A stretch of DNA of 42,228 bases from Coriobacteriales bacterium. GTDB lineage: Bacteria; Actinomycetota; Coriobacteriia; Coriobacteriales; UMGS124. Positions within the stretch are counted from its first letter, which is position 1, and each line of letters begins with the position of its first letter. The notes under the pieces are model-generated. The model made no database searches. It was not told the origin of the DNA and saw nothing but the letters and a program-made list of their open reading frames with translations. The position numbers were made by a program, and so were the translations under genes. Below are positions 8,836 through 42,228 of this stretch, piece by piece. The DNA lies in assembly GCA_017515595.1 (NCBI GenBank), contig JAFWFL010000064.1, positions 1 through 42,228 of the forward strand, read 5' to 3'.

Positions 8836-9977
8836 TGACAATCACAACCCAGCGTCCGCGGCTTGCAATTATTGGCGCAAGCTATTTACAGATGCCTCTC
8901 ATTGAAAAGGCAAAAGAGCGCGGCTTTGAGACTCATGCATTTGCGTGGGCAGCCAATGATGTGGGCGAAGCCGCCGCAGATGTATTTCATCCCATTAGCA
9001 TTATTGAGGTCGATAAGATTATTGATGTCTGCCGCGACCTTAATATTGTGGGTATTTGCTCCATCGCTTCTGATGTAGCTACGCTTGCGGTCAACCATGT
9101 TGCAAACGCATTGGGTTTGCCGGGCAATTCTTTGGAATGCACAGTAAAAAGCACCAATAAACATGCCATGCGCGAAGCTTTTGAGCAGTGCGGCGACCCG
9201 AGTCCCAAAAGTTTTTTGGTAGACAGTGAAACGAATCTCGACGTCATTCTCGAGAACATTAGCTGGCCTATTATTGTAAAACCCACTGATCGCAGCGGAA
9301 GCCGCGGTATTACCAAGCTCTATGATACAAATGGACTTGAGCAGGCGCTCGATGAAGCATATGGACAGAGTTTTGAACACAAAGCTCTCATTGAGGAATT
9401 TGCCGAGGGCGAAGAGTTCAGCGTTGAGTACATAAGCCAGGGCGGAGTGCACCACTTCCTCGCAATTACCCGTAAGTTCACCACCGGTGCGCCTCACTTT
9501 ATTGAGACCGGACACGAGGAGCCAGCAGATCTTGACGAGGCAACATATGACCGGGTCAAAGCAGTGGTTGAGCATGCTCTCAACAGCTTGGGCGTCACAG
9601 ACTCGGCTTCGCATAGCGAGGTTATGATCAACAGTGACGGCAGTATCAAACTCATTGAGATTGGCGCCCGCATGGGCGGAGACTTTATTGGAAGCGACCT
9701 CGTGTACCTCTCAACCGGATATGATTACGTTGATATGGTTATTGATGTTGCCTGCGGTAACCCTCTTGTCTTTAAGCCGGCCCGCAAACCGCATAAAGCC
9801 TCGGCTCATTTTATCTTTAATCAAGAGGATGTCGAGAAATTCGAAACCATTAAACGCGAGCATCCCGAGACCATTTGGAAAGCCGGAGACGTGGACTATT
9901 CCCTCTTAGGAAACGCTCATGACTCGAGTACCCGTGCCGGATGGTATGTGCTTATTGGAGAAGCACTCGACGCATAA
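8835..9977 (+). CDS. ATP-grasp family ligase in the sugar cassette
   Basis: 380 residues: N-terminal preATP-grasp Rossmann-like part (LAIIGASYLQMPLIEKAK, about 10-27), then ATP-grasp lobes with IIVKPTDRSGSRGI (about 146-159), EEFAEGEEFSVEYI (about 190-203) and the metal-binding end KLIEIGARMGGDF (about 272-284). Such enzymes activate a carboxylate as acyl-phosphate and join it to an amine or thiol. Lying between two sugar-aminotransferase homologues, it may acylate the amino sugar with an amino acid, but neither partner is shown by sequence. Related carboxylate ligases also serve peptide and cofactor synthesis. Confidence 0.75.
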   Translation: MTITTQRPRLAIIGASYLQMPLIEKAKERGFETHAFAWAANDVGEAAADVFHPISIIEVDKIIDVCRDLNIVGICSIASDVATLAVNHVANALGLPGNSLECTVKSTNKHAMREAFEQCGDPSPKSFLVDSETNLDVILENISWPIIVKPTDRSGSRGITKLYDTNGLEQALDEAYGQSFEHKALIEEFAEGEEFSVEYISQGGVHHFLAITRKFTTGAPHFIETGHEEPADLDEATYDRVKAVVEHALNSLGVTDSASHSEVMINSDGSIKLIEIGARMGGDFIGSDLVYLSTGYDYVDMVIDVACGNPLVFKPARKPHKASAHFIFNQEDVEKFETIKREHPETIWKAGDVDYSLLGNAHDSSTRAGWYVLIGEALDA

Positions 9978-13005: not shown

Positions 13006-13366
13006 CGCAGTAAAGCGGGCTCGGTGATCGCGCTGGGAGGCAGCAGCCTCCGGTGAGGAAAGTCCGGGCTCCACAGGGCAGGATGCCGGCTAACGGCCGG
13101 GCGGGGTGACCCGACGGATAGCGCCACAGAAAAGAAGACTCCCGGCAATTCTTTGTCGAGAAAAGCTGAAACGGTGCGGTAAGAGCGCACCAGCGTATTG
13201 GTAACAATACGGCTTGGCAAGCCCCATCCGGAGAAAGGGCAAATAGGGATACTATAGGTTGGCCCGACCTGTATCCGGGTTGCCTGAGAAGAGACGTGCG
13301 GCAACGTACGTCCAAGATAAATGACCACCCACGACAGAACCCGGCTTATAGGCCCACTTTACTGCT
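13006..13366 (+). ncRNA. rnpB: RNase P RNA, A-type
   Basis: Catalytic RNA that trims tRNA 5' ends. Signature segments are in order: GAGGAAAGTCCGGGCTCC at about 13055-13072, the CACAGGGCAGGATGCC block, and the 3' conserved ACAGAACCCGGCTTATAGG at about 13334-13352. Helix P1 defines the ends: GCAGTAAAGCGGGC (13007-13020) pairs with GCCCACTTTACTGC (13352-13365), 13 of 14 positions. About 360 nt, normal for the class. It separates the sugar cassette from the argD end, and repeat copy C follows. Confidence 0.96.
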
Positions 13367-13380
13367 TACCCACTCCTTTA

Positions 13381-13491
13381 GAAAATTCTAAAAAACTTAA
13401 AGGGGCAGGGATACATAACGTTCATCGCTCTCGCCTTATAAAAACGCTCTGAACGTTATGTATCCCTGCCCCTTTAAGTTTAAAAATTTTC
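13381..13491. repeat. Core-palindrome family, copy C
   Basis: Perfect 30-bp arms (13394-13423 and 13451-13480) enclose a 27-bp core (13424-13450) that is the exact reverse complement of the copy D core. The arms run outward imperfectly to 13381 and 13491. It sits between the convergent rnpB and argD, so it may act as a transcription barrier. Confidence 0.9.
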
Positions 13492-18286: not shown

Positions 18287-18392
18287 GCCAATCCTGTCAT
18301 AGCGTCGTCGCGTTCTAACTCATAAATGTATATGATACTACATATTGACATTTGTAATACCGCAAACACAAGAAAAGCCCAAGGAGCTTATC

Positions 18393-18431
18393 AAACAGGG
18401 GGACGCAGCGCTTGCTTACGTCCCCCTGTTT
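18393..18431. terminator. Hairpin terminator after the LPXTG gene
   Basis: A 13-bp perfect stem, AAACAGGGGGACG (18393-18405) with CGTCCCCCTGTTT (18419-18431), lies 37 bases past the stop of the wall protein. T-tracts on either side are short (TTTT on plus). It differs from the core-palindrome family: no AGAGCG core. Confidence 0.7.
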
Positions 18432-18467
18432 TAAAATACTTTGGGCAATACAAATCCTTATTTTGCC

Positions 18468-22410: not shown

Positions 22411-22486
22411 GGGGATGTGGCTCAGTTGGGAGAGCGCTGCCTTCGCAAGGCAGAGGCCGGGGGTTCGAATCCCCTCATCTCCACCA
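22411..22486 (+). tRNA. tRNA-Ala (anticodon CGC)
   Basis: 76 nt with encoded CCA. Acceptor strands GGGGATG and CATCTCC pair with a G3-U70 wobble, the identity mark of alanine tRNA. The anticodon arm CTGCC-TTCGCAA-GGCAG gives anticodon CGC, and the T arm contains GGTTCGAATCC. An intrinsic terminator follows after 13 bases. Confidence 0.97.
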
Positions 22487-22499
22487 TTTACCTCATCAT

Positions 22500-22532
22500 G
22501 CCCGTTGGTACTCAGCCCAACGGGCGTTTTTT
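22500..22532 (+). terminator. Intrinsic terminator of tRNA-Ala
   Basis: Stem GCCCGTTGG (22500-22508) with CCAACGGGC (22517-22525), followed by GTTTTTTG. The T-run is at the same time the outer edge of repeat copy B. Confidence 0.9.
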
Positions 22533-22740
22533 GTTTCGGGGTATCAGGAAGGTCTTAGGAGAACAGCTCTTACGATACTTTTTGAGTATGTGAAAAGGGG
22601 GGCGGGTACACATTTCGTCCGGAGCGTTTTTATGAGGCTAAAGCGGAGGATGACATGTGTACCCGGTCCCCTTTTCACATACTCAAAAAGTATCGTAAGA
22701 GCTGTTCTCCTAAGACCTTCCTGATACCCCGAAACAAAAA
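22528..22740. repeat. Core-palindrome family, copy B (longest)
   Basis: 86-bp arms (22528-22613 and 22655-22740) are complementary except for two adjacent positions near 22600. The 41-bp centre contains the core variant GGAGCGTTTTTATGAGGC. The outer ends coincide with the T-runs of two convergent terminators (tRNA-Ala on plus, rplT on minus), so the element fills the whole space between them. Confidence 0.95.
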
Positions 22741-22763
22741 TACCCGCCACGGGGGCGGGTATT
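22733..22763 (-). terminator. Intrinsic terminator of infC-rpmI-rplT
   Basis: On the minus strand AATACCCGCC (22763-22754) pairs with GGCGGGTATT (22748-22739), followed by TTTTTG. It stands about 30 bases after the rplT stop. Confidence 0.9.
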
Positions 22764-22792
22764 GGAAGTTATGCAATCAAACGTTGCAGTGC

Positions 22793-23161
22793 TTATGCGC
22801 GAGCCTTGGCAACAGCGTCTTTGGCAATGCCGCAGAGGTCGGCGAATGACTGGGGATCCTCAATAGCCATCTGAGAAAGAACTTTGCGATCAAGCTTGAT
22901 GCCGGCAAGGTTCAGGCCATAGATGAACTGTGAGTAGCTCATGCTATTGATGCGGCAACCGGCGTTAATGCGGGTAATCCAGAGACGACGGATGTCGCGC
23001 TTCTTGTTGCGACGGTCGCGATACATGTACATGAGCGAGTGGCGTACCTGCTCTTTAGCTACACGATAATGGCGTGAACGCGCACCATAATAACCCTTAG
23101 CAAGTTTGAGAATACGACGACGCTTTTTCTTTGCGTTAGCTGAGCGCTTAATACGTGCCAT
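22793..23161 (-). CDS. rplT: Ribosomal protein bL20
   Basis: 122 residues, close to full family length. The basic N-terminus [28 protein letters not shown] and the [16 protein letters not shown] block are bL20 hallmarks. It binds 23S rRNA early in large-subunit assembly, and in many Gram-positives free bL20 represses its own operon through the leader. Third gene of infC-rpmI-rplT, followed by a clear terminator. Confidence 0.98.
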
Positions 23162-28664: not shown

Positions 28665-28769
28665 GGGATGTCTCTGTAAAAGGGGCTGTGATACATTCTC
28701 TTCAGAGCGTTTTTATAAGGCGAGAGCGATGAAGAGAATGTATCACAGCCCCTTTTACAGAGACATCCC
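28665..28769. repeat. Core-palindrome family, copy D
   Basis: Perfect 39-bp arms (28665-28703 and 28731-28769) around the 27-bp core (28704-28730: AGAGCG, TTTTTATAAGGCG, AGAGCG, AT). It lies between the end of the amidohydrolase gene and the metF promoter. Confidence 0.95.
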
Positions 28770-28786
28770 CCATATCAGATAATCAA

Positions 28787-29593
28787 TTACCTGATATCCA
28801 TCTGTAAGAACTTCTCGGCATTATGCCAGGTCATTTGTTCCACTTCTGCTTGGGTAAAGTCACCGCCGGCAAGCGAATCTAAGAATATCTGCAGCTCGCT
28901 TACGGGATTCCACATGGGGTAGTCGCTGCCAAAGAGAATGCGGTCACAACCGTAGGCGCGCACCAGCTCACGGGTTCTGCGGGGGCCAATGTATGTAAGG
29001 GCGCTTGAGACATCTACAAAGCAGTTCTCGTTTTCCAAGAATTCAAGCGCGAGGTCAGGAATCGACCAGCCGCCAAAATGTGCCGCATCCATCATAAGCT
29101 TGGGGAATGTCTGCAGAATATGCTTAATGCGCCTGGGATGCGACAAGTCTTCACGGTAATCACCGCAATGAACAATCATGGGGACGCCCTTGGCCTCGGC
29201 GATTTCGAACACTTTCATAAAGCGCGGGTCATCAACAGCTACGCCCTGCATGTCGGGGTGAATCTTGATGCCCTTGAGCCCCATTGCGAGCGCGCGGTCA
29301 ATCTCTTTTGCGGGGTCTTCATAGTCCTGATGAAGCGTCATAAACCCAATAAAACTCGGGTTCTCTTCGCAGGCGCCGGCAATAAAGTTGTTGATACTCT
29401 CCACGTTGGACGGCTTAACGGCCACCGAGTGAACTACCTGGTGCGTAATGGGACTGCCCTCCGTCATGGCAAAATACCCGTCCACCGAACCGTCTCCCGG
29501 CATGTCCACACCATAAAACGCGCCAACACTTTGGGCGGCTTTAAGGGCGATTTTTTGCGGGTATACATGGACATGAATATCAACAATGGGCAT
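28787..29593 (-). CDS. Amidohydrolase-2 family metal-dependent hydrolase
   Basis: 268 residues; the start is set at MPIVDIHVHV because GAGGAGAA precedes it. TIM-barrel amidohydrolase with VDIHVHV at the N-terminus (metal HxH), GIKIHPDM (about 123-130), IVHCGDY (about 153-159), AAHFGGW (about 188-194) and FGSDYPMWNP (about 230-239), the metal-binding set of the family. Related proteins are decarboxylases or hydrolases of small aromatic or cyclic acids. The substrate is unknown and neighbours give no hint. Confidence 0.85.
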   Translation of the reverse strand: MPIVDIHVHVYPQKIALKAAQSVGAFYGVDMPGDGSVDGYFAMTEGSPITHQVVHSVAVKPSNVESINNFIAGACEENPSFIGFMTLHQDYEDPAKEIDRALAMGLKGIKIHPDMQGVAVDDPRFMKVFEIAEAKGVPMIVHCGDYREDLSHPRRIKHILQTFPKLMMDAAHFGGWSIPDLALEFLENENCFVDVSSALTYIGPRRTRELVRAYGCDRILFGSDYPMWNPVSELQIFLDSLAGGDFTQAEVEQMTWHNAEKFLQMDIR

Positions 29594-29762
29594 GAACTTC
29601 TCCTCAAACACAAATAAGTTTCTCAAACTGTTGAGCTTACCTCAAGACAGGGGCCAAGCGCTTCTCAGTAATCAATCTCAAGCAATCAACAGAAGGTCTT
29701 TCACGGCTTGTAATGTGTTAACAAGAATGATAATAGGTCATGAGGACGGTTTTCTTGACCCA

Positions 29763-42165: not shown

Positions 42166-42228
42166 CATCGCCACATATTCTTCATCGCTCTCGCCTTATA
42201 ATAACGCTCTGAAGAATATGTGGCGATG
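42166..42228. repeat. Core-palindrome family, copy E (cut by window end)
   Basis: 18-bp perfect arms visible (42166-42183 and 42211-42228) around a 27-bp core (42184-42210) that differs from copy C at one base (ATAATAACG against ATAAAAACG). The preceding AGGGG suggests the left arm continues, so the right arm probably runs past the window. It lies 28 bases after the ATPase stop. Confidence 0.9.

Follow-up and report, generated by a model that had tools for sequence, protein, structure and literature searches.

Hairpin D lies at positions 28665 to 28769 of the window, by which we mean the whole 42,228-nt stretch of DNA that was analysed. It is one of five copies of a hairpin in that stretch, each of which carries the loop core, either as GAGCGTTTTTATAAGGCGAGAGCG or in a closely similar form, and two of which (hairpins A and E) are truncated at contig ends. 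The copies and their neighbours are as follows.

28665-28704, + strand: left arm of hairpin D, 40 nt, perfect
28705-28729, + strand: conserved loop of hairpin D, 25 nt, with the core GAGCGTTTTTATAAGGCGAGAGCG at 28705-28728
28730-28769, + strand: right arm of hairpin D, 40 nt, perfect; the amidohydrolase gene has its 3' end 18 nt farther on
28787-29626, - strand: amidohydrolase gene, neighbour of hairpin D
13012-13364, + strand: RNase P RNA gene, with hairpin C directly downstream
13393-13481, - strand: hairpin C, 32-nt perfect arms, with the same loop on the - strand at 13426-13449
22411-22486, + strand: tRNA-Ala, neighbour of hairpin B
22528-22740, + strand: hairpin B, 93-nt arms with 4 mismatches, loop core at 22622-22645
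22793-23161, - strand: gene for ribosomal protein L20, neighbour of hairpin B
1-101, + strand: hairpin A, loop core (1-24) and right arm, the copy being cut by the contig end
42166-42228, - strand: hairpin E, loop core at 42186-42209, cut by the contig end, with arms visible over 19 nt

The left arm of hairpin A is found on contig C94 (L034), and the two arms mirror one another over ~75 nt. When treated as single-stranded DNA, hairpin D has a folding z of -15 relative to dinucleotide shuffles, and it folds far better than shuffled sequence on either strand. Rfam covariance models run on the window matched only the RNase P RNA and one tRNA, with none of the hairpins above gathering score. Two unlike terminator-like stems flank hairpin B, one on the tRNA-Ala side and one on the L20 side (22500-22765); both carry the tail TTTTTGTTTCGGGGTATCAGG because that tail sits within the mirrored arms, and one copy of the tail may have been derived from the other. 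Elsewhere in the window, at 18388-18436 between two gene ends, two 18-nt arms in inverted orientation (AACAGGGGGACG...CGTCCCCCTGTT) enclose a 13-nt loop.

The family was gathered through pattern and model searches of the draft genome (3.3 Mb, 134 contigs). The pattern search placed the loop core at 48 sites, compared with 0 matches for the reversed control, and a covariance model built from 33 copies found 50 places, a few of which are the two contig ends of one hairpin. Most copies are intergenic. The same covariance model gave 0 matches in 59 related genomes, none of which belongs to the same genus, and the exact loop pattern gave 0 in GTDB species genomes and viral contigs, a collection from which records very near this genome may be missing. 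As judged by MetF, the nearest named relatives are uncultured rumen actinobacteria and Atopobiaceae (60-69% identity), which makes an uncultured lineage of Coriobacteriales the probable host; an empty-site comparison at metF found that synteny upstream of this gene is absent in them.

A conserved tip with variable, co-varying arms

What the copies share is a tip, consisting of the 24-nt loop and a stem of ~12 bp, together with a GCCCC/TTTT box farther out. Read outward from the loop, the right arm begins with ~12 bp such as GGATGGTATGT or TGAACTCAATGT, passes through variable positions 13-18 to GCCCC at 19-23 and a T-rich stretch, and then continues as the outer arm, the total arm length being ~40-90 nt. 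Copies of the TGAACTA class are 92% identical to one another in the loop and 94% at positions 1-12; identity drops to 44% at positions 13-18, reaches 64% at positions 19-23 and lies near 30% beyond about position 24; from position 29 outward, the arms of different copies resemble one another no more than shuffled sequence does. Hairpins C and D are of the TGAAC type. When the outer arms of TGAAC-type copies were compared with the genome, the only significant matches were between a copy's own two arms (the outer stretch of hairpin D being too short to score). The inner stem carries fixed, oriented mismatches: among the 35 complete copies, arm position 5 is G-T in 17, with the G always on the left, and arm position 8 is T-T or T-C in 19, with a T always on the left.

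Two unusual loci were seen. At L005 (contig C43, core 8903-8926) the tip is intact and the arms are unrelated beyond ~12 bp, which looks like the replacement of one side. At L082:383-607 (contig C56) a palindrome with 103-nt arms has outer arms of the GGACG type, with the tip swapped for a hairpin with the loop aataggagaagattcgatc.

The initial annotation, which was made from hairpins A to D, had proposed that the arms co-vary, and this proved correct, in a family that is larger than it described and occupies 50 places. In the 35 complete copies, the median number of differences between the two arms of a copy is 1 in 30 positions, and copies differ from one another at a mean of 15.4 of 30. At positions 13-36, Watson-Crick pairing is found in 31-35 of the 35 copies, and it falls to 27-79% when arms are swapped between copies. 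Across the 33 aligned copies, changes on both sides number 156 cells as compared with 41.5 in shuffles (none of 500 shuffles reached 156), and only 16-26 when the partners are slid by 1-3 columns. Thus, the co-variation is far beyond chance. The divergence between copies does not explain how alike the two arms of a copy are, a feature expected of a quasipalindrome template-switch product. The inner arms that the annotation had quoted for hairpins B, C and D are all present, as is the outer end shared by A and D (GAGACATCCCC, at 91-101 and 28760-28770, respectively). Its statement that every differing base is answered by a matching change in the opposite arm holds for C and D but not for B, in which 4 of 93 positions are mismatched; two of these four lie within the part that it quoted (AAAAGGGGGGCGGG on the left, CCCGGTCCCCTTTT on the right).

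Arm rewriting or selection on pairing as possible causes

Co-variation of this kind could arise because pairing is selected, the hairpin acting as RNA (a bidirectional terminator, for example) or as a folded site in the DNA, with a mutation in one arm being compensated in the other, or because one arm serves as template for rewriting the other. Four tests bear on these two readings, both of which the initial annotation had offered. In five pairs of close paralogs there were 49 mirrored and 13 unmirrored substitutions beyond position 12. Eighteen of the 49 mirrored substitutions were transversions, and with a sixth pair added the mirrored changes comprised 37 transitions and 26 transversions, so that the transversion share is 37-41%. 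Transversions have no route through a G-U intermediate. Indels are mirrored too in some pairs, as with one base in L033/L024. Residual mismatches beyond position 12 (39 of 1671) consist of 12 G-T, 7 A-C and 20 others, half of them being of transversion types, and show no clear wobble bias; note that this mismatch count is a lower bound, as a draft assembly may merge small differences between arms. Outside arm position 5, only 7 one-sided standard-pair cells were found in the main stem. Taken together, the mirrored transversions, the mirrored indels, the lack of a clear wobble bias and the scarcity of one-sided G-U cells favour copying from arm to arm, and beyond ~12 bp from the loop the comparisons favour rewriting over compensatory selection.

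Selection on pairing, which we consider an improbable explanation for the arms as a whole, does draw support from several other features. The GCCCC/TTTT box is conserved at arm positions 19-28 and is present on both sides; the arms end near gene 3' ends (a median of 18 nt, compared with 82 nt to 5' starts, distances that come from simple ORF-based gene calls); and inner mismatches read in loop orientation are G-T rather than A-C by 23 to 1. Proximity to 3' ends together with the box suggests either a role in termination or that arms are tolerated up to stop codons. The slight excess of G-T over A-C among the residual mismatches (12 versus 7) makes some selection on pairing possible. Pairing stays high, however, out to 60-90 nt from the loop, which is more than a terminator needs, and a scan for short-loop terminators returned nothing at hairpin D, whose loop is 25 nt. 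The choice between the two readings divides along the stem: rewriting is favoured beyond ~12 bp, and the loop and first 12 bp, with their fixed oriented mismatches, suggest either selection or a segment that rewriting never reaches.

The mirrored changes showed no excess of clustering over chance (p = 0.31 in the close pairs), and so they give no evidence of long conversion tracts; single mutations that were copied across later would fit this distribution. Duplication of flanking DNA was rejected as the sole cause, because the GCCCC box at 19-23 is common to the copies and positions 13-18, which lie on the tip side of the box, vary and are mirrored, but duplication may apply to the outermost arms.

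Short-read assemblers can collapse arms or fold contigs back, and part of the arm identity might in principle be an artefact of this kind. Many contigs do terminate inside family hairpins, and contig C114 opens with 111 nt that perfectly mirror its own arm, the same arm being found at the start of C9, where it diverges after ~60 nt; the outer part of the C114 mirror is probably a fold-back artefact. As a general explanation we regard assembly error as very unlikely indeed, given that copies in the interior of contigs, flanked on either side by unique sequence (B, C and D among them), show the same pattern, that differences between copies are large and mirrored, and that the 39 arm mismatches survived assembly.

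A proposed route through fold-back copying

We put at roughly 0.6 the probability that hairpin D belongs to a lineage-specific family of REPIN-like intergenic hairpins in which one arm is repeatedly rewritten from the other; this would explain why stems differ so much between copies and are near-perfectly complementary within each. The route is probably intramolecular template switching, in which a nascent strand at the replication fork would fold back on the tip. The loop-proximal stem would serve as primer, and a polymerase would copy the first arm outward to give the second. Mutations in a single arm would in this way be erased or mirrored, with the primer zone left alone, and fold-back copying may also extend the arms into the flank.

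The fixed asymmetry of the inner stem indicates that the tip has not been traversed by copying, and no inversion of the loop relative to the tip was seen; homogenisation through to the loop would have erased the asymmetry at positions 5 and 8. In fold-back copying the primer zone escapes rewriting and the orientation of the spacer is preserved, so the tip would be spared. Intermolecular template switching, by comparison, can invert spacers (PMC8604942). Purifying selection, for example on a tip that is bound by a transposase, could equally give the same picture and is compatible with the tip being a primer zone.

A bolder version of arm rewriting, which we entertain as a conjecture that is unlikely to be right, holds that the inherited unit is the tip alone and that each site grows and renews private outer arms by fold-back copying of adjacent DNA. 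If this were true, the outer stem of each copy would exist nowhere else in the genome.

In this genome (97.7% complete), SbcD, MutS and NucS were not detected, and the search for SbcC gave nothing convincing, its one weak match being a 1194-aa frame far below the cut-off; such a background is in keeping with arm rewriting. Because SbcD is undetected in some hairpin-free relatives as well, its absence would be permissive at best. MutS- or NucS-dependent repair of mismatches in a folded cruciform was discarded as a candidate, neither gene having been detected. A genome in which both SbcCD and MutS/NucS mismatch repair are undetected might provide a system for measuring arm rewriting at the fork.

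One arm is known to template the other, with repeats perfected and changes mirrored, in the correction of quasipalindromes by template switching in E. coli (PMC7202029), in the homogenisation of inverted-repeat arms (PMC8604942) and in the maintenance of hairpins by template switching (PMC8794818). Those systems involve single sites or short stems, whereas here there are ~50 dispersed copies with arms of ~40-90 nt, which appear, from comparison of their sequences, to have been rewritten. Co-variation in a stem is usually read as proof of a selected RNA structure; ~50 hairpins whose co-variation seems to derive from copying are a natural warning case for that inference.

REP motifs, transposases and related palindromes

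Many copies of the GGACG type carry REP motifs such as GGTGACGCGAGAACCGTCCCCCTGTCACC in their outer arms, and in many of them (e.g. L040, L037 and L029) an inverted pair of REPs forms one hairpin. No recognisable REP was found in TGAAC-type copies, C and D included. A lone REP-like element, GGTCATGAGGACGGTTTTCTTGACC, with the stem GGTCA/TGACC, is present in the window at 29736-29762. Six genes for Y1 transposases scored above the Pfam Y1_Tnp cut-off; for all six the best NCBIfam model was REP_Tyr_transpos, each match being below the cut-off of that model. Three of these six RAYT-like genes are flanked by REPs in which the loop motif is the same and the stems are others, and the loop core was absent from the RAYT loci examined.

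We think that a REP-associated transposase may have helped the past spread of the family. It is decidedly unlikely that transposition also accounts for the arms, as it would if the element moved as single-stranded DNA and the second arm was regenerated at each move, with only decay thereafter. The RAYT-like genes, three of them with these flanking REPs, the REP motifs with which GGACG-type copies end and arm identities that range from perfect to ~80-88% (L002, L046) are all in keeping with such remaking. The outer arms of TGAAC-type copies, however, match nothing else significantly in the genome and resemble one another no more than shuffled sequence does, so they did not arrive with a recent parent copy.

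Like the REPINs mobilised by RAYT (Bertels and Rainey 2011, PMC3116915), the family consists of intergenic hairpins apparently formed by inverted pairs, with REP outer ends in many copies, though not in those of the TGAAC type, and RAYT-like genes in the genome. In the REPINs of SBW25 the REP ends are conserved and the spacer is variable (PMC3116915), whereas here the tip is conserved and the arms are variable, identity between the outer arms of different copies being near random. The family is best filed, putatively, as one that works like a REPIN with a conserved tip.

Some REP dimers of the GTAG and CGTC super-families likewise lie inside longer palindromes (PMC3733652). The REP motif here, AGAACCGTCC, includes CGTC. 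The palindromes that enclose those dimers fit a shared consensus (PMC3733652), whereas here the outer arms vary from copy to copy.

The genome also contains REPINs whose arms are mirrored and whose loops are of other kinds (L096-L099 and L101). At L101:265-505 (contig C66), several REPs cluster into a single large palindrome, whose arms are 64 nt long and whose 113-nt middle is also palindromic in part.
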